This document shows, one piece after another, positions 5,628-13,229 of a stretch of 20,011 nucleotides of DNA. The notes below the pieces were generated by a model. It was not told where the DNA came from. It was given only the letters and a program-made list of their open reading frames with translations, and searched no databases. The translations under genes were made by a program, and so were the position numbers. Source of the DNA: a virus; IMG/VR virus record IMGVR_UViG_3300036651_000048, positions 1 to 20,011 of that record. One strand, given 5' to 3'. Positions within the stretch are counted from its first letter, which is position 1. Every line of letters begins with the position of its first letter.

Positions 5628-7616
5628 ATGAGCAACTACTCCCGGCCCGGAGTCTTCGTCAACACGAGCCTGACGCCGTTAACCTCCAGCCCCTCCGGGG
5701 TCACGGGCGGGGCGGTGGCTTGCTTCGTCGGCGCGTACAACAGGGGTCCGACGCAGCCCACGCTCGTGACGAGCTGGCAGAACTTCGCCAACTTATACGG
5801 CGGCTTCAACGTCGCCAACGGCTCGCCGCTGGCCTACGCGGTCTGGCAGTACTTCTCCAACGGCGGGTCCGCCTGCTACGTCTACCGGGTCCCGAACACC
5901 GACGCCGTGGTCTCCAGCCTGGCAGTCGGCAGCGTCGAGCCGACCCAGGCCGCGCTGGCTGCGCCCGGGTCTGTCACGCCCACCACGGCGACCTCGGGCG
6001 GCACCGTCGCGGCCGGGACCTACCAGGTCCAGGTCACCTACGTGGACTCCTTCGGTGAGACCACGGCTTCCGCGTCCCACTCGATCGTCACGACCGGCTC
6101 TGCCTCGACCATCACGATCCCCTCGCCGCCCTCCGAGTCCCCGGCGACCGGCTGGTACGCCTACGTCACCCAGGCCGGTGGCAGCACCTACACCCGGCAG
6201 CAGACGGCCGGGTCGCCTACGACCATCGGCACGCCCCTGGTCATCACGGCCCCGCCGACCAGCTCGGGCGCGGCCCCGCCGAGCACGAACACGACCGCCT
6301 CGACCACCTCGGAAGTCGCGAACCTCCTGACCTTCATCTCCAACAGCCCGGGTGCGTACGGCAACACCCTGTACACCGAGATCGTGGCGGGCGCGTCGAG
6401 CCTGAACGACCCGACGTCGGTCTTCACGGTGAACGTCTACCTGGGCGGAACCGCCGCCGCCAACCTGGTGGAGACCTGGCCTGCGGTCTCGCTGAACCCG
6501 GGAAGCGCACGCAACCTCGTGTCCATGATGAACGCCAGCATCGGCGGGTCGAACTTCGTGTCCGCCAAGGTGGCCTTCGCGAGCGGCAGCTACGTCGCGG
6601 GTGACGGCTCCTCGGACCCGATGCCACAGTCCCCGACCGCGCTGACCGGCGGCTCGGATGGCACCGTCGCCCCGTCGCTGGACACCGCGATCACCACCGG
6701 CCTCTCTGCCTCGGGCGGGAACCCGTGGAACTCCCCGGGCCTGGGCAGCCTGTCCAACGTGGTGCTGAACGTCAACCTCCCGGCCGGGCCGTCTGCCGGG
6801 ATCGCGCAAACCGTCCTGAACAACGTCATCACCTGGGCAGAGAACCAGGGGAACGTCTTCGTGATCATCGACGCCCCGTTCGGCGGGGTGCCGCTGCTGT
6901 CGTCCTCGCAGTTGGTCACCAGCTACCAGTCGTACCTGACGACCGGCACGGCGATCAGCGCCTCCCCGAACGCGGCGATCTACGGGCCGTGGCTGTCGAT
7001 CAAGGACCCGGCCTCGGCCGCCCCGACCGCTACCGCGTGGGTCGCCCCGGGCGGCGCGGTGCTCGGCGTGTGGGCGCAGAACGACACGAACTACAACCTG
7101 TCGCACACGCCAGCCGGGACCTCGGCCACGGTCGGCGCGGTCGCGCTGGAGGGGTACTTCACCCCGGCCGACCTCAGCAACCTGGAGACCATGCAGGTCA
7201 ACCCGATCAAGCAGATCCCGGGCTCGGGCCTGTGCGTCTTCGGCGGCCGGACGCTGGGCACCGGGTACCCGAACCGGTACATCAACGTCAGCCGGACCCT
7301 GATGCAGTTCACCACCGACTTCGTGAACATCACCCAGTTCGCGATCTTCCAGAACAACGACCCGAGCCTCTGGCAGTCGATCACCACCGTCCTGTCCAAC
7401 TACCTCATGCAGGCGATGCAGGCGGGGATGCTGGCGAGCACGACCCCCGAGACCTCGTTCTCGGTGGTCTGCGACGGCACGACCACCTCGGCGGCCCAGG
7501 CCCAGGCTGGGATCGTCAACGCGCAGGTCGCGGTGGCCCTGGCTAGCCCGGCCGAGTTCATCATCATCAACCTCAGCCAGATGCAGGGTGGCGGGTCCGC
7601 CACCGTCAGCTCGTAA
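5628..7616 (+). CDS. Contractile tail sheath protein, 662 aa
   Basis: Subunit of the sheath that surrounds the tail tube and contracts on infection. ATG 5628 is chosen because the product then starts MSNYSRPGVFVNTSLTPL, matching the PGV(Y/F)V opening of the family. The N-terminal core is at about 1-104 (ACFVGAYNRGPTQPTL, NFANLYGGF). Residues about 105-229 form a Thr/Ser/Pro-rich insertion with an Ig/Fn3-like pattern (GTYQVQVTYVDSFGETTASA ... GWYAYVTQAG). The core resumes at NSPGAYGNTLYTEI. The conserved C-terminal sheath domain (about 530-655) has RYINVSRTLMQF, FQNNDPSLWQSI and SPAEFIIINLSQMQG. At 662 aa it is near T4 gp18 (659) and much longer than P2 FI. TTA codons are at 18 and 56. The identification is firm. 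Confidence 0.95.
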   Translation: MSNYSRPGVFVNTSLTPLTSSPSGVTGGAVACFVGAYNRGPTQPTLVTSWQNFANLYGGFNVANGSPLAYAVWQYFSNGGSACYVYRVPNTDAVVSSLAVGSVEPTQAALAAPGSVTPTTATSGGTVAAGTYQVQVTYVDSFGETTASASHSIVTTGSASTITIPSPPSESPATGWYAYVTQAGGSTYTRQQTAGSPTTIGTPLVITAPPTSSGAAPPSTNTTASTTSEVANLLTFISNSPGAYGNTLYTEIVAGASSLNDPTSVFTVNVYLGGTAAANLVETWPAVSLNPGSARNLVSMMNASIGGSNFVSAKVAFASGSYVAGDGSSDPMPQSPTALTGGSDGTVAPSLDTAITTGLSASGGNPWNSPGLGSLSNVVLNVNLPAGPSAGIAQTVLNNVITWAENQGNVFVIIDAPFGGVPLLSSSQLVTSYQSYLTTGTAISASPNAAIYGPWLSIKDPASAAPTATAWVAPGGAVLGVWAQNDTNYNLSHTPAGTSATVGAVALEGYFTPADLSNLETMQVNPIKQIPGSGLCVFGGRTLGTGYPNRYINVSRTLMQFTTDFVNITQFAIFQNNDPSLWQSITTVLSNYLMQAMQAGMLASTTPETSFSVVCDGTTTSAAQAQAGIVNAQVAVALASPAEFIIINLSQMQGGGSATVSS

Positions 7617-7626
7617 GGAGCCTGGG

Positions 7627-8256
7627 ATGCCATTCAGCCAGTCCGCGTCGATCGCGCACTTAGCGACCGACCCGCTGCGGAACTTCAAGTTCCTGGTGGA
7701 CATCACGGCCAACCCCTCGGGCACGTCCCTGGCTCCCTCGGGGAACACCCTGAGCCTGGGCTTCATGTCGGTGTCGGGGCTGAACGTCAACGTGTCGGTG
7801 ATTGCCTACCGCGAGGGCGGCATGAACACGGTCACGCAGAAGCTCCCGGGCCAGGCCGACTTCTCGCCCATCGTCTTACAGCGGGGCGTGGCTGTCGGTC
7901 ACTCCGAGGACATCAAGTGGCTCAAGGAACTCTTCCAGGTCATCCAGGGCAGCTCGTCCGGGTCCACGGCCGGTAAGGACTTCCGGCAGACCATCGACAT
8001 CCGCGTGCTGGCCCACCCGGTGACCGGGCCGTCCGCGCCCGTGTCCGCGTGGTTCAAGGTGTTCAACGCGTGGCCGACTGCGGTTGCCTACAGCGACCTG
8101 GACGCGGGCACCAACCAGCTCCTGCTGTCGCAGATGACGCTGGCGCACGAGGGCTGGGACTACGCGCTGTCCAGCTCGGTGACGGGCGATGCGACCGACC
8201 CGTCCAAGTCCAGCGGCGGCAGGGCGTTCGGCATCCAGTCAGCGGGCGCTGCATAG
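7627..8256 (+). CDS. Tail tube protein (T4 gp19-like), 209 aa
   Basis: Forms the rigid inner tube through which DNA passes. ATG 7627 follows TAAGGAG with a six-base spacer, where the sheath stop TAA forms part of the ribosome binding site. Family landmarks run in order: DPLRNFKFLVDI, GFMSVSGLNVNVSVIAYREG, KLPGQADFSPIVLQRGV, IDIRVL ... AWFKVFNAWPTAVAYSDLDA and LAHEGWDYALS near the end. This is the gp19-like tube family shared by myoviruses and extracellular contractile injection systems. The RNFKF start, YREGG loop and NAWP motif are especially close to the injection-system branch. TTA codons are at 12 and 84. Confidence 0.94.
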   Translation: MPFSQSASIAHLATDPLRNFKFLVDITANPSGTSLAPSGNTLSLGFMSVSGLNVNVSVIAYREGGMNTVTQKLPGQADFSPIVLQRGVAVGHSEDIKWLKELFQVIQGSSSGSTAGKDFRQTIDIRVLAHPVTGPSAPVSAWFKVFNAWPTAVAYSDLDAGTNQLLLSQMTLAHEGWDYALSSSVTGDATDPSKSSGGRAFGIQSAGAA

Positions 8257-8299: not shown

Positions 8300-9157
8300 A
8301 TGGGTGCAAGCCGTACGCGGGAAGAGGCGTTAGCCAGCCCGGGGAAGACCAACGCAGATGTAGACGCCATCCTGTCCGGCGCGGGTGTCAATGACGCGCC
8401 CGAGGTGGAAGCCCCGCCCGCCGACCTGGTGAAGCTCCCCGGCGGCCTGGTCCAGGGTGGCAAGGTCCGCAAGTCAGCCGTCGTGCGCGAGCTGAACGGC
8501 TCCGACGAGGAGGCCCTGTCCCGGGCGCTCCAGTCCGGCTCGGTGTTCCACTTCATGGACGTCCTGATCGAGCGGGGCACCGTGTCGGTCGGTGACCTCC
8601 AGGCCACCCCGGAGATCCTGAAGAGCCTGCTCATCGGTGACCGCGACGAGCTGGCCCTGGCCATCCGGATCGCGACCTACGGCGACGAGATGAGCATCGA
8701 GCGGTGGACCTGCCCGGCCTGCCAGAAGATGTCGGACATCTCCTTCAGCCTGGCCGAGGATGTCGAGCGCAAGACGCTGAAGGCCGAGGACGGCGTCTTC
8801 GAGGTCAGCCTGCGCAAGGGCGCGACGGCCAAGGTCCGGCTGCCCAACGGGGCCGACCAGGACGCGCTGTTCGAGGACGACGACTGGACGACCGCACAGC
8901 GGAACACCATCCTCATCAGCCGGTGCGTCCTGAGCTACACCGACCCGGACGGCCAGGAGTTCAACATGGCCGCCTTCCCGAGCATGTCGCTGAACTTCTC
9001 TATTCCTGACCGGCAGAAGATCATCCGCGAGATCAGCGAGCGCCAGCCTGGCCCCCGGTACAATGAGATCGGGTTCACCCACCAAGAGTGCAAGAATGAG
9101 GTGGTCCTCGCACTCGGGGTGAGGGACTTGTTTCGCGACCTTATCCTCTTCCTTTAG
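8300..9157 (+). CDS. T4-baseplate-type tail assembly chaperone, 285 aa (upstream frame)
   Basis: Start ATG 8300 is preferred to ATG 8288 because GGAG at 8290-8293 is spaced six bases from it. The N-terminal 60 residues are Asp/Glu/Pro-rich and probably disordered. The core includes SAVVRELNGSDEEALSRALQ, ERGTVSVGDL, LLIGDRDELALAIRIATYGD, a CPAC pair (TCPACQK, possible half of a zinc site) and YNEIGFTHQECKNEVVLALG near the end. This matches the T4-baseplate-type proteins encoded between the tube and tape measure in contractile tails, which probably act as assembly chaperones on the tape measure. The last 11 codons are rich in rare codons (TTG TTT, CTT, CTT) and end CTT TAG G, the likely site of +1 frameshifting into the frame ending at 9326. 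TTA is at codon 11. Confidence 0.8.
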   Translation: MGASRTREEALASPGKTNADVDAILSGAGVNDAPEVEAPPADLVKLPGGLVQGGKVRKSAVVRELNGSDEEALSRALQSGSVFHFMDVLIERGTVSVGDLQATPEILKSLLIGDRDELALAIRIATYGDEMSIERWTCPACQKMSDISFSLAEDVERKTLKAEDGVFEVSLRKGATAKVRLPNGADQDALFEDDDWTTAQRNTILISRCVLSYTDPDGQEFNMAAFPSMSLNFSIPDRQKIIREISERQPGPRYNEIGFTHQECKNEVVLALGVRDLFRDLILFL

Positions 9158-9326
9158 GGGACTGGAGTACAGGGCCACGCTCGAAGAAGTCGGAGCGTTG
9201 TCCCGGTTCTTCGCTGGCTGGTCGCGCACGGACCTCATGAGCCTGCCGGTGCGTGAGCGCCGTTACTGGATCAGGTGGGCCACCTATGTGGTGGCACAGC
9301 AGGAGCGCGCGAACGACGGGAGGTAG
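9123..9326 (+). CDS. Downstream frame of the tail chaperone, probably expressed by +1 frameshift
   Basis: This frame opens after a TGA at 9120-9122, overlaps the chaperone end by 35 bases and closes at TAG 9324-9326. It encodes RGLEYRATLEEVGALSRFF, then a compact tryptophan-rich part with SRTDLMSLPVRERRYWIRWA. That L-x-V-R-E-R-R-x-W pattern resembles the very small helical protein that follows the T4-baseplate-type gene in injection systems and contractile phages. No usable start was found: TTG 9198 has GGAG only two bases away, and ATG 9237 has no ribosome binding site and would cut off the first helix. A +1 shift on CTT (9152-9154), skipping T9155, reads directly into AGG GGA CTG and gives a 341-aa fusion (285 + 56). 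Expression as a fusion is inferred. The coding nature of the frame is well supported by GC3 and motif. Confidence 0.65.
   Translation, partial: GTCFATLSSSFRGLEYRATLEEVGALSRFFAGWSRTDLMSLPVRERRYWIRWATYVVAQQERANDGR
9152..9158 (+). promoter_or_regulatory. Putative +1 programmed ribosomal frameshift site (CTT TAG G)
   Basis: The last sense codon CTT and the stop TAG form CUU UAG G. A leucine tRNA on CUU can re-pair with UUU one base downstream, as it does at the CUU UGA site of the RF2 gene. After the slip the frame continues as AGG GGA CTG GAG without interruption to 9326. Unlike RF2, no Shine-Dalgarno-like stimulator is obvious just upstream. The surrounding 9126-9157 is unusually pyrimidine- and AT-rich. 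Confidence 0.5.
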
Positions 9327-9328
9327 CA

Positions 9329-10210
9329 GTGGCCAGCAAGAGCGCCCTTCCGAAGCTGGTCACCCAGCCGCCGTTCGCCGCGCAGATACGGGACTTACCC
9401 CGGGCGCTGGGGACGAACGTCGCCCTTCAGCGCGGCTACATGATCTGGGCTAAGCCGATGACGTCGTTCTACGGGGGCGGCGGCCCGCTGGGCGATGGCC
9501 GGGACATGATCAAGTTCCTGTTCAACCCCTCCACCGTCAGCACGGACTACAACGTCGCCAACGCCAGCCTCCAGGCCGCGATGATGTACACCGTGCCCGG
9601 CGACCAGGGCAACCTGCTGGCCCCGCTGTTATCCCAGTCTGTCTCCTGGTCGCTGTACTTCGACCGGACGTACGAGCTGAACTACGGCGGCAATTCCAGC
9701 GCCATCAATGACCCCGCCGTGGTCGGTGTCCAGGCCGACGTCTACCAGTTCATGCAGTTCACGGGCGTCTTAGCGGACCTCAGCAGGCAGCAGTCAAGCC
9801 AGCTTTCCGGTGCCGTCAACACCGCTGGCGGCGGCACGTCAAACGCCCAGATCGGCGGGTCCACGGGCGGGATCATGATGATGGTCCCGTGCTACGTGTT
9901 CTTCGGCAGCTCGCTCCAGCAGATGACCAACAACCCGAAGAGCAGCAACTTCAACGCGCTCGCGAGCCAGCTCGCGTTCTACGGGTTCATCAGCGAATGG
10001 AGTGTCGAGTACACCCACTGGACGTCCAACATGGTGCCTATCCGGGCCGTCGTCTCGGTGAGCTTCACGATGCTGCCCGCGCCGCCCAAGGGCGTCCAGA
10101 GCGCCGTCTGGCGTGACCTCAACCGGCTCGGGAAGGCCCCGTCCACCGCGCCTATCCCGTACGCGCCCGGCCAGACCGGGACGCCTCCCATCGGAGTGAT
10201 CGGTGGCTAG
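9329..10210 (+). CDS. CIS_tube-like baseplate protein (Afp7/PVC7-type N-terminal domain), 293 aa
   Basis: GTG 9329 is two bases after the previous stop, with GGGAGG (9318-9323) five bases upstream. The product starts VASKSALPKLVTQPPFAAQI. It carries the family layout: FLFNPSTVSTDYNVAN, then SWSLYFDRTYELNYGG, a helix AVVGVQADVYQFMQFTGVL, MMMVPCYVFFG, YGFISEWSVEYTHWTSNMVP and a closing strand IRAVVSVSFTML. This order of FNP, Fd, V..v..L, P...fvwG and G.PvRA.v.V fits proteins that bridge tube and hub in contractile injection systems. In those systems this domain is normally fused to a LysM domain; here the LysM is a separate gene beyond the tape measure. It overlaps the tape measure start by eight bases. 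TTA codons are at 23, 101 and 148. Confidence 0.72.
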   Translation: MASKSALPKLVTQPPFAAQIRDLPRALGTNVALQRGYMIWAKPMTSFYGGGGPLGDGRDMIKFLFNPSTVSTDYNVANASLQAAMMYTVPGDQGNLLAPLLSQSVSWSLYFDRTYELNYGGNSSAINDPAVVGVQADVYQFMQFTGVLADLSRQQSSQLSGAVNTAGGGTSNAQIGGSTGGIMMMVPCYVFFGSSLQQMTNNPKSSNFNALASQLAFYGFISEWSVEYTHWTSNMVPIRAVVSVSFTMLPAPPKGVQSAVWRDLNRLGKAPSTAPIPYAPGQTGTPPIGVIGG

Positions 10211-13200
10211 CGGCGAGTTCAACGCGGGCGCGGGCGGGCTGCTGGGGACCAATGACCTCCAGCAGTCGATCGACACGTTCAAGAGCGCAGTCGATGACCT
10301 GAAGTCCACCGTCGCCAACCTCGGGACGTCGATGGGCAGCGGGATGCTCCGACACCCGGCCATGGGGATGCTGTCCGAGGGCCAGACCTTCACCAGGGGG
10401 TCGCTGAACGGCATGGCCATGGGGGGCAACGGCTCCTTCCTGACAAGCTCTCAGCAGCGCGGTGCGGTCATCCTCGGCCAGGGCCAGGGTGGCAGCCAGG
10501 GGTCCTCCTCCCCGACGCCCACGATGAACGACACGGCGTCTGGCGGGGGTGCCAACGGCGGCGGTTCCTCCTTCGGCGGTCCTCGCGGCGGCGGCGGCAG
10601 CGGGTCCGGCAGCTCGGGCTCGTCCGGCAGCTCGGGCAGCGCCAGCCCGCCGCCCACGATGGGCTCCACGGCAGCAGGCGGCGGTGCCAACGGCGGCGGT
10701 GCCACGTTCGGCGGCGGCTCAGGCGGTGGTCCTGGCGGCCCTGGTGGTCCCACAGGCCCGATCGGCGGTCCTCGCGGCCCGGGGATGGGTGCCACGCCCG
10801 CGTCGTTCCTCAGCCGTGCTGGGGGCGCGGCCATGGGCGGGTTCGCCGCCATGGGGATGAGCCAGTACGGCAACCAGCTCCTGTTCAACGCCTACGGCCA
10901 GCAGATGGCCGCCACGTACGGCTACGGAGCCCAGTCCGCCCAGAACAACGCCTTCGGCAACGGCAACGGCATGGTCAACGCGGCGGCGGCGGGCAGCGCC
11001 CAGGGCGCGGCGTCCGAGTTCACCACGCTCAACCAGATGGCCGGTGGCGGCGCGATCGGCTACGGCAACGCGCTCCAGGCGGCGAACGCCTTCGCCTTCA
11101 CCAACCAGGGCCTGGGCGCGGCCGGGGGAGCGCAGCTCGCCTCGTCGGTGTACAACCCGGTCAATTCCCTGCGGATGCAGATGCTCACGGGCGTCAGCTC
11201 GATCAACCCGCAGTCCGGCCAGATGAACAGCATGGCAAGCGTCATCGGCGGCCTGGCCTCGGACAACTACCTCGGCGGTGGCGGCTACAACTCCCGCACG
11301 GGGACGTTCCGCCAGTCGGCGCTGAACGCATCATTCACGCCCGGCCGTGGCACGAGCTACATGAACCTCCAGTCGCTGGGATACAACCCGACGCAGATCT
11401 CCGACATCCAGTCCATGACGAGCCAGGCCAACCAGGCGGCGAACCGGGGCCACACGTCTCTCTCGAACGTGCTGGGCACGATGGGCCACGCGGAGTACGG
11501 CTCCGAGGGCCAGATCCAGTCGGCCGACGCCCAGCTCAAGAAGTGGGGCATCAACCTCTCCACGATCCAGAAGCAGGGCAACTTATCCAGCCTGGGCATG
11601 GCCCAGTCGCAGAGCCAGTCGAGCACCTTCAACGAGGCCATCTCGGGTGCCACCTCGGTGATGACGAAGTTCACCCAGGCGGTCAACTACTTCCTGGACA
11701 AGACCGGGCTCAACAAGGCCATGGGGCTCGGCGGGGGCATCTCCGCAGGCGCAGCGTCCACCGGGCTCAGCGGCATCATGTCCGGTATCGCGGGCACGGC
11801 CATGTCCATCGCGAGCATCGGCGGCGGCGCGGCGGGCGTGTCCACGGCCCAGCCGATGACGAGCCAGGGCAGCAGGCCCGGCAGCTCGCTGTCCGGCGTT
11901 TCCGGGTCGGCCGCGACGGCGGTCAAGGATGCCGAGGGGCAGGTCGGCAAGCCCTACGTCTACGGCGGCAGCAACCCGCAGACCTCGTTCGACTGCTCGG
12001 GCCTGGTCATGTGGGCCTACGGCCAGGCGGGCGTCAAGCTCCCGCGCACGAGCCAGCAGCAGTGGGCGGCGCTGAAGAACAAGTCCGTCCCGGCGAACCA
12101 GGCCCGCGAGGGCGACATCGTCTTCCAGGCCGGATCGGACGGCACCGCGCAGGCCCCGGGCCACGAAGCCCTCATGATCTCCAGCAAGCAGATCGTGGAA
12201 GCGCCGTACACGGGCGCGAACATCCGCATCCGGGCGTACAACCCGAACGAGTGGCAGCACGTCGGCCGCCCGGTGGGCAAGGGCGGCGGCAGCGGCAGCT
12301 CGTCGGTGTCCGGCACGCAGACCGGCAGCACGTCGTCCTCGCTGGGGGCGGGCAACTCGGGGGTCGGGAACTACGGCTCGACTGAGGAAGTCGATGCTGT
12401 CGCCAGCGCCCTGGGCGGGGGCACGTCCGGCGGTGCCACGCACCTCATGTCCACGACGACCAACGGGTCAGCCACATCCGGCAGCAAGGGCAACCTCAAC
12501 GTCGGGACGGCGGGCGGCGGCGGTGCGGGCGCGAACAAGGCGCTCGCGAAGAAGATGGCCGCGCAGATGTACGGCTGGAGCGGGAGCGAGTGGTCGCAGG
12601 GCCTGGACCCGCTGTGGACGCAGGAGTCCGGGTTCCGCAGCAACGCCCAGAACCCGACCAGCACCGCCTTCGGCATCGCCCAGTTCCTGGACAGCACGTG
12701 GGGTCCGTACGGGCCGAAGACGTCCAACCCGGGGCTCCAGATCAAGTACGGCCTCGAATACGTCCACAACCGGTACGGCAACCCGCTCGCCGCCGAGGCG
12801 CACGAGAAGCAGTACAACTGGTACGGCACCGGCACCCGGAGCGCGGCCCCGGGCATGGCGCTGGTGGGTGACCGTGGACCGGAGCTGATCGACCTGGGCG
12901 GCGGCGGCCAGCAGATCCACAACGCGCAGGCGACCTCGAACATCCTGCGTGGCAACTCGGCGCTCCCGGCTCAGTCACCGTGGACGGCCTCGCCCGGCCA
13001 GCAGCTCCTGCTCGACACGATGACCCCGGCCAACAATCACGCGCGGGGCTCGGGCGGCGGCGTGACCATCACGCTGACGGTCGAGAAGGGCGCGTTCCAG
13101 CTCACCGGCACCGGGATCAGCGGCTCGTCCGATGTCCAGTCGCTGGCCGACGCGTTCGGCCAGGCGGTCGAGTCCCGCCTCCAGAAGTCCGAGCTGATCC

Positions 13201-13229
13201 GGAACATCGCGAGGGGGAACACGGGCTGA
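10203..13229 (+). CDS. Tail tape measure protein with NlpC/P60 and lytic transglycosylase domains, 1008 aa
   Basis: Sets tail length and, on ejection, helps open the cell wall. GTG 10203 has GGAG six bases upstream. Residues about 95-205 are Gly/Ser/Pro low complexity. Residues 205-580 are Gln/Asn/Ala/Gly-rich with a hydrophobic stretch at about 505-545. An NlpC/P60 peptidase spans about 575-690: Cys598 in FDCSGLVMWAYGQAG, His654 in PGHEALMISS, followed by VEAP. A transglycosylase spans about 780-880: KMAAQMYGWSGSEW, catalytic Glu808 in LWTQESGF, AFGIAQFLDSTWG, IKYGLEYVHNRYG and a final NWYG. The C-terminus has ALVGDRGPELIDLGG, frequent near tape-measure ends, and an amphipathic tail. Carrying both a peptidase and a glycosidase is typical of actinophage tape measures. 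The only TTA is codon 461. Identification is firm; the tail length it would give cannot be read from sequence. Confidence 0.93.
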   Translation: MASGEFNAGAGGLLGTNDLQQSIDTFKSAVDDLKSTVANLGTSMGSGMLRHPAMGMLSEGQTFTRGSLNGMAMGGNGSFLTSSQQRGAVILGQGQGGSQGSSSPTPTMNDTASGGGANGGGSSFGGPRGGGGSGSGSSGSSGSSGSASPPPTMGSTAAGGGANGGGATFGGGSGGGPGGPGGPTGPIGGPRGPGMGATPASFLSRAGGAAMGGFAAMGMSQYGNQLLFNAYGQQMAATYGYGAQSAQNNAFGNGNGMVNAAAAGSAQGAASEFTTLNQMAGGGAIGYGNALQAANAFAFTNQGLGAAGGAQLASSVYNPVNSLRMQMLTGVSSINPQSGQMNSMASVIGGLASDNYLGGGGYNSRTGTFRQSALNASFTPGRGTSYMNLQSLGYNPTQISDIQSMTSQANQAANRGHTSLSNVLGTMGHAEYGSEGQIQSADAQLKKWGINLSTIQKQGNLSSLGMAQSQSQSSTFNEAISGATSVMTKFTQAVNYFLDKTGLNKAMGLGGGISAGAASTGLSGIMSGIAGTAMSIASIGGGAAGVSTAQPMTSQGSRPGSSLSGVSGSAATAVKDAEGQVGKPYVYGGSNPQTSFDCSGLVMWAYGQAGVKLPRTSQQQWAALKNKSVPANQAREGDIVFQAGSDGTAQAPGHEALMISSKQIVEAPYTGANIRIRAYNPNEWQHVGRPVGKGGGSGSSSVSGTQTGSTSSSLGAGNSGVGNYGSTEEVDAVASALGGGTSGGATHLMSTTTNGSATSGSKGNLNVGTAGGGGAGANKALAKKMAAQMYGWSGSEWSQGLDPLWTQESGFRSNAQNPTSTAFGIAQFLDSTWGPYGPKTSNPGLQIKYGLEYVHNRYGNPLAAEAHEKQYNWYGTGTRSAAPGMALVGDRGPELIDLGGGGQQIHNAQATSNILRGNSALPAQSPWTASPGQQLLLDTMTPANNHARGSGGGVTITLTVEKGAFQLTGTGISGSSDVQSLADAFGQAVESRLQKSELIRNIARGNTG
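10518..10715 (+). repeat. Imperfect direct repeat in glycine-rich part of the tape measure
   Basis: Two copies, starting at 10518 and 10653 (135 bases, 45 codons apart), each encode the pattern PTM-x-x-TA-x-GGGANGGG-x-x-FGG. Copy one reads TASGGGANGGGSSFGG and copy two TAAGGGANGGGATFGG. Between them lies a Gly-Ser tract with repeated SGS units. The arrangement points to an in-frame duplication in a flexible linker. Confidence 0.7.

Follow-up and report, generated by a model that had tools for sequence, protein, structure and literature searches.

In a large family of contractile phages, infecting actinobacteria and other hosts, the tail assembly chaperone of the T4 type appears to be made in two lengths by a +1 shift at UUU_C. 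We analysed one such gene in a 20,011-base virus record, a fragment (hereafter the window). Comparison with its relatives strongly supports a programmed +1 frameshift in the chaperone gene. Slippage at UUU_C would very probably give a chaperone with a short form of 285 residues and a long form of 341 residues, the two products that the sequence-only reading of this DNA had already proposed for a +1 shift. To our knowledge, the frameshifted tail chaperones described so far nearly all use a -1 shift, and T4-like chaperones have been thought to rely on another mechanism. As for UUU_C, it is known mainly from eukaryotic viruses. The present family supplies many natural variants for learning what makes this sequence slip on bacterial ribosomes.

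Frameshifted tail chaperones, the role of T4 gp26 and gp51 as chaperones, the -1 poly-T sites of myophages and the +1 chaperone of HSTV-2 are already known. In the literature searched, Vladimirov et al. 2022 excepted, no conserved UUU_C +1 site was found in the PF12322 chaperone family, and no mention of DUF6760 was found in the literature searched. The deep conservation of such a site in the PF12322 family is therefore new, as far as we found.

The chaperone gene and its +1 extension

The window contains a contractile tail module made of sheath, tube, PF12322 protein, CIS_tube protein and tape measure-like protein, then spike and baseplate genes; the features located below are on the + strand. 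The chaperone gene lies between the tail tube and tape measure genes. The tail tube protein, of the gp19 type, occupies 7627-8256 (start codon approximate; PF06841 at E=2e-25 and phrog_4542 at E=9e-32, both on 7588-8253). The zero frame of the chaperone gene, 8300-9157, codes for 285 residues and matches PF12322 T4_baseplate, the family of T4 gp26/gp51, at E=2e-9 (37.9 bits for a curated cut-off of 24.5), which bears out the T4-baseplate type first read from the letters. It also matches phrog_150 at E=1e-10. The next gene, 9329-10210, codes for a CIS_tube (LysM-type hub/tube) protein (PF19266, E=5e-7), and is followed by a tape measure-like protein with an NlpC/P60 domain at 10203-13229 (PF00877, E=3.5e-22; phrog_13339, tail length tape measure, E=7e-36). 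The C-terminal region of the latter protein matches a transglycosylase family. In the window, the CIS_tube gene separates the chaperone from the tape measure, an order not shared by the Streptomyces relatives, where the chaperone region is directly followed by a long gene of the tape measure type.

An AlphaFold model, made of the short form only, has a pLDDT of 90. When this model was compared to the PDB with Foldseek, the top match was the HK97 tail assembly chaperone 2ob9, a weak one (E=0.19, prob 0.84), and YqbN (3klu) was at rank 20. By analogy, we infer that the window gene codes for a tail assembly chaperone, the short and long forms of which would act like lambda gpG and gpGT.

No stop interrupts the +1 frame between 9123 and 9323; the one that closes it is at 9324-9326. 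Over 9123-9154 this frame overlaps the zero frame while the latter still codes, and this overlap holds the slip site in every relative. Counted from AGG at 9156, the +1 frame contains the 56 residues announced in the sequence-only reading. With TTTC translated as a single Phe, the extension spans 9135-9326, that is 63 residues plus the stop (ATLSSSFRGLEYRATLEEV...VRERRYWIRWA...NDGR). It matches PF20546 (DUF6760) at E=2.6e-4 and 21.4 bits, under the curated cut-off of 27. The extension is, on this profile evidence, a relative of DUF6760 and not a formal member, linked by profile to in-frame fusions and to the DUF6760 of extracellular contractile injection system (eCIS)-like loci.

Relatives were collected by scanning IMG/VR and bacterial genomes with alignment queries. 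These scans gave 251 loci with the chaperone, 245 of them with a complete end, from which 166 distinct junctions and 79 representatives (<70% identity) were derived. Single-sequence searches for relatives in viral contigs and genome contigs gave no match where alignment queries did, and a plasmid search gave no match either. The nearest cultured relatives found are the Streptomyces myophages BRock, LuckySocke, Alone3, GiJojo and pSt2308, with a chaperone identity of 34-38%. In each of them, the DUF6760-like segment follows the chaperone immediately, in the +1 frame; the deposited annotation of these phages gives this segment a late start or lacks it. The corresponding ORFs (BRock gp135, LuckySocke 91; nothing annotated in pSt2308) would thus belong to a known protein, as its C-terminal part.

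Throughout the phage relatives, the +1 extension follows the chaperone without any frame-breaking stop. When substitutions between relatives in the extension are sorted by codon position of the +1 frame, 363 are at the first position, 184 at the second and 880 at the third, the distribution expected of a coding sequence, and this pattern indicates that the extension is coding. The conservation suspected from the single sequence is thereby upheld and, on such comparative grounds, the +1 extension is a real protein segment under coding selection rather than a chance open frame.

An independent start for this segment is not apparent. In the window, the +1 frame lacks ATG and GTG upstream of the conserved core, and the only start-like codons of that frame are CTG at 9162, directly abutting AGGGGA, and TTG at 9198, inside the domain. 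ATG, GTG and TTG are all absent upstream of the core in 27 of 76 representatives, among them the window, and the starts found in the other representatives are not conserved. The idea that the segment lacks a start of its own is supported by this comparison.

The TTT_C site in the overlap

Within the last 14 codons of the chaperone frame, 166 of 166 distinct junctions and 79 of 79 representatives have TTT as an in-frame codon with C as the next base, always inside the overlap. Position by position, TTTC is the sole four-base stretch that is 100% conserved across the representatives. Elsewhere in these genes, windows of 14 codons contain an in-frame TTTC in 1.6% of cases (0.4% in GC-rich phages). 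Shared ancestry inflates such site counts; with the 19 clusters at 50% identity that have GC-rich members, P is still ~1e-22 under independence. In the window, TTT_C is at 9131-9134, the Phe codon being that of F278 of the chaperone, and the E, P and A site codons of the proposed shift would be TTG TTT CGC (9128-9136).

Codon usage singles out the same place. The Phe codon of the slip site is TTT in all 79 representatives, while other Phe codons are TTT in 32% of cases overall and in 7% in the 31 GC-rich representatives. Measured against codon use in genes of like GC class, the synonymous-codon anomaly at the slip-site Phe reaches z=20.6 in GC-rich phages; at other positions in this group it is at most about 2.5, and none at the stop is comparable to that of TTT. 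In the main genes of the window, TTT accounts for 1 of 136 Phe codons, the one at 9131, which also forms their only in-frame TTTC. TTG accounts there for 3 of 344 Leu codons, one of which directly precedes the slip-site TTT.

The codon after TTT varies (Arg, Leu, Gln, Pro), yet its first base is always C. The A site is CGN in 52 of the 79 representatives. GC-rich members most often have CGC in the A site; it makes up 45% of their Arg codons and is not rare, so that the usual hungry-codon stimulus is missing. The E site is TTG in 39 and CTG in 21 of the 79 representatives (60/79 together); TTG represents ~8% of the Leu codons in these genes. A downstream RNA structure, pseudoknot or stem-loop, was looked for in 78 representatives and gave no signal (mean z = -0.01). 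A weak mean Shine-Dalgarno-like signal occurs 1-6 nucleotides upstream of TTT and is probably driven by a conserved Gly-Asp motif.

Considering these features, the following mechanism may be envisaged. Most ribosomes would terminate at UAG (9155) and release the short form. In a fraction of them, the Phe-tRNA in the P site would slip by +1 from UUU to UUC at 9131-9134. The anticodon of the Phe-tRNA, GAA, is a better match for UUC than for UUU. The E-site Leu codon possibly contributes to the slip. Slipped ribosomes would continue into the extension and produce a long form made of 278 plus 63 residues, ending in the DUF6760-like domain. If the two forms work as lambda gpG/gpGT and T4 gp26/gp51 do, the tape measure protein would be coated by the short form, and tube subunits would be brought in through the extension. 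We infer shifting at UUU_C, its efficiency, the P-site mechanism and the role in assembly from the architecture of the gene and from precedent: influenza PA-X and human PLEKHM2 shift by +1 at UUU_C, with a preference for CGN in the A site, and sites of this type are well established (PMC3498833, PMC12551717).

Other arrangements of the two domains and alternative explanations

The same two domains are joined in other ways outside the phage clade. In two actinobacterial genomes with contractile tail-like loci (L273 and L275), the chaperone and a DUF6760-like segment form one uninterrupted ORF, matching the fused profile at E=9e-19 and 3e-15, respectively. In 19 actinobacterial eCIS-like loci (L094-L112), DUF6760 is a separate gene, the start of which overlaps the stop of the upstream protein. 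This upstream protein resembles the N-terminal half of the chaperone; the start is apparently CTG in 2 of the 19 (L101 and L104). Comparison therefore finds the chaperone and DUF6760-like parts fused in frame, encoded separately, or in a +1 overlap.

The sequence-only reading had placed the shift elsewhere, with a Leu-tRNA slipping by +1 on CUU at the stop codon, as in RF2. CTT (9152-9154), TAG (9155-9157) and G (9158) do occupy the positions it gave. CTT TAG sits in the overlap, +1 slippage at CUU_U is known from RF2, and some of the nearer relatives of the window also end with CTT followed by TAA, TAG or TGA (L007, L008, L013, L022). However, the last sense codon is CTT or CTC in no more than 19 of the 79 representatives, the other endings being GTC TAG, GGC TAA, GAT TGA, CGC TGA and more, and the conservation of CUU URA at the overlap, proposed in that reading as a test on related loci, does not hold. 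In addition, the codons behind TTT have no synonymous anomaly comparable to that at TTT, and a slip at CUU_UAG G (9152-9158) leaves the invariant TTT_C unexplained. The invariance of TTT_C, the codon anomaly and the variability of the codon before the stop thus favour UUU_C (9131-9134) over CUU_UAG as the place of the slip. The site first proposed was about seven codons too far downstream, TTT C in the overlap having been missed. Similarly, the rare-codon stretch noticed at the outset does contain rare codons, but these are TTG TTT at 9128-9133. Slippage on CUU is hence highly improbable.

Besides slippage at UUU_C, it may be imagined that the DUF6760-like segment is made as a small protein of its own, from a start translationally coupled to the chaperone stop. 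The eCIS-like loci offer a model for this, since in 19 of 19 an ATG, GTG or CTG overlaps the stop; an overlapping ATG is also present in Vibrio phage KVP40, and the window has CTG at 9162 and TTG at 9198. The eCIS form has the look of independent initiation, and the window is unlike it: the segment of the eCIS-like loci is in frame +2 and that of the phage clade in frame +1, which is always open back through TTT_C. Moreover, the absence of a start before the core in 27 of 76 representatives, its lack of conservation in the others and the location of TTG 9198 inside the domain all speak against coupling, which we consider very unlikely. Another view would be that of a sequencing error or a decayed gene, both frames really being one gene; a frame break between two halves that are fused elsewhere (L273, L275) could give such a picture. 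However, the same +1 arrangement is found in finished isolate genomes (BRock, GiJojo, LuckySocke, pSt2308) and in bacterial prophages, it recurs in 166 distinct junctions, and indel errors would not preserve TTT_C. The isolate genomes and the 166 junctions refute a sequencing error, and the chance that both frames are really one gene is practically nil. Finally, the +1 frame might be reached via a -2 shift, transcriptional slippage or a phage tRNA reading UUUC as four bases, with a similar end product, and the 20-kb fragment at hand leaves room for the tRNA-based variant. Against these routes, re-pairing of the Phe anticodon at -2 would meet UGU, a mismatch, while +1 re-pairing on UUC is perfect according to established decoding rules; three T's in a row would not suffice for the polymerase to slip; and phages that differ widely in GC keep the slip site. 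There is little probability left for any of them, and a +1 slip at UUU_C is by far the preferred explanation.

Comparison with known systems

T4 solves the problem with two genes. Its gp26 (L278:5803-6429, - strand) matches PF12322 at 9e-64 and its gp51 (L278:6480-7229) at 4e-52, the latter match covering residues 1-201 of 249. At its C-terminus, gp51 has about 48 residues more, and a profile of the cyanophage short form plus extension aligns its extension there. The two T4 proteins are members of the same family as the window protein, gp26 corresponding to the short form and gp51 to the form with a C-terminal extension. In T4, these are paralogues, short and long, without any frameshift, whereas the window phage has one gene and a +1 frame. 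Vladimirov, Gautam and Davidson reportedly described gp26 and gp51 in 2022 as tail chaperones with paralogous short and long forms (cited in PMC10885494 and PMC12846349). In T4, both proteins are listed as hub assembly chaperones (PMC3004832). According to passages of papers citing Vladimirov et al. 2022, some T4-like phages have one short and one long, fused, chaperone copy (PMC10885494).

Among distant members of the PF12322 family, the frame of the extension varies. TTT C with a +1 extension is found in Streptococcus phage GXN1, Bacillus phage SP-15, Flavobacterium phage immuto and the 484-kb megaphage LR756508, and TTT TTT then A or T, again with a +1 extension, in Listeria phage LIS04 and Microcystis phage Mel-JY01 (locus set L279, L280, L281, L282, L276 and L277). 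In cyanophage Bellamy, Vibrio phage KVP40 and Agrobacterium phage Atu_ph07, the chaperone ends with U_UUU_UUC and the DUF6760-like extension is in the -1 frame (cyanophage gp26 loci L287-L366, and L285, L286 and L283). The -1 heptamer is present in 78 of 78 distinct Bellamy relatives. An in-frame ATG (at +14 in the -1 frame) follows the heptamer in all of the 30 Bellamy relatives listed, and separate initiation from that ATG may operate in these phages. Profiles of the +1 and -1 families can be aligned with each other (hhalign 94.6%, E=7e-8). The register of the T-run in the distant +1 phages differs from that in the -1 phages. It is tempting to imagine, and we incline slightly to this view, that within the family combining PF12322 with a DUF6760-like extension evolution moved between +1 UUU_C and -1 U_UUU_UUC through a change of register in a Phe-coding T-run at one aligned place, as in GAA TTT TTT CAC of SP-15 (+1) and GAT TTT TTC GTA of KVP40 (-1), besides gene duplication, fusion and a separate coupled gene, and that UUU_C works there without a detectable stimulatory RNA structure or a rare A-site codon.

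The poly-T sites at which TAC-N genes of T4-like and other myophages shift by -1 (PMC12846349) answer the same functional problem in the opposite direction, with a T-run register different from that of the window. In the window and its clade, the extension is in the +1 frame, so that the gene falls outside the -1 X_XXY_YYZ class. Lambda gpG/gpGT and the equivalents in P2, HK97 and the SEA-PHAGES collection are also encoded between tube and tape measure, with a short and a C-terminally extended form. As in the window, there is one gene, with frames overlapping near the 3' end. However, these chaperones are of another family and mostly use a -1 shift (-2 in Mu), whereas the window would use +1 at UUU_C in PF12322.

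In the haloarchaeal myovirus HSTV-2, a two-piece chaperone join is annotated between tube and tape measure, and a +1 shift is considered very likely (PMC5009743). The overlap (L088:15456-15515) contains TCC TTT CGC, an influenza-like motif. The host is archaeal, and no PF12322 or DUF6760 similarity was detectable in the HSTV-2 chaperone. Beyond chaperones, RF2 (prfB) also shifts by +1 near the end of its ORF, at CUU_UGA, whereas CUU_URA is not conserved in the window family. The FseA site of a Mesorhizobium ICE, in an unrelated gene, involves a P-site UUU slip like that proposed here (PMC5009743). UCC_UUU_CGN of influenza PA-X and PLEKHM2 shares with the window the P-site UUU slip and the CGN A site (PMC3498833, PMC12551717). 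These genes are unrelated to the chaperone and have YCC in the E site, whereas the window family has YUG in the E site and, in the A site, a CGC codon that is not rare.
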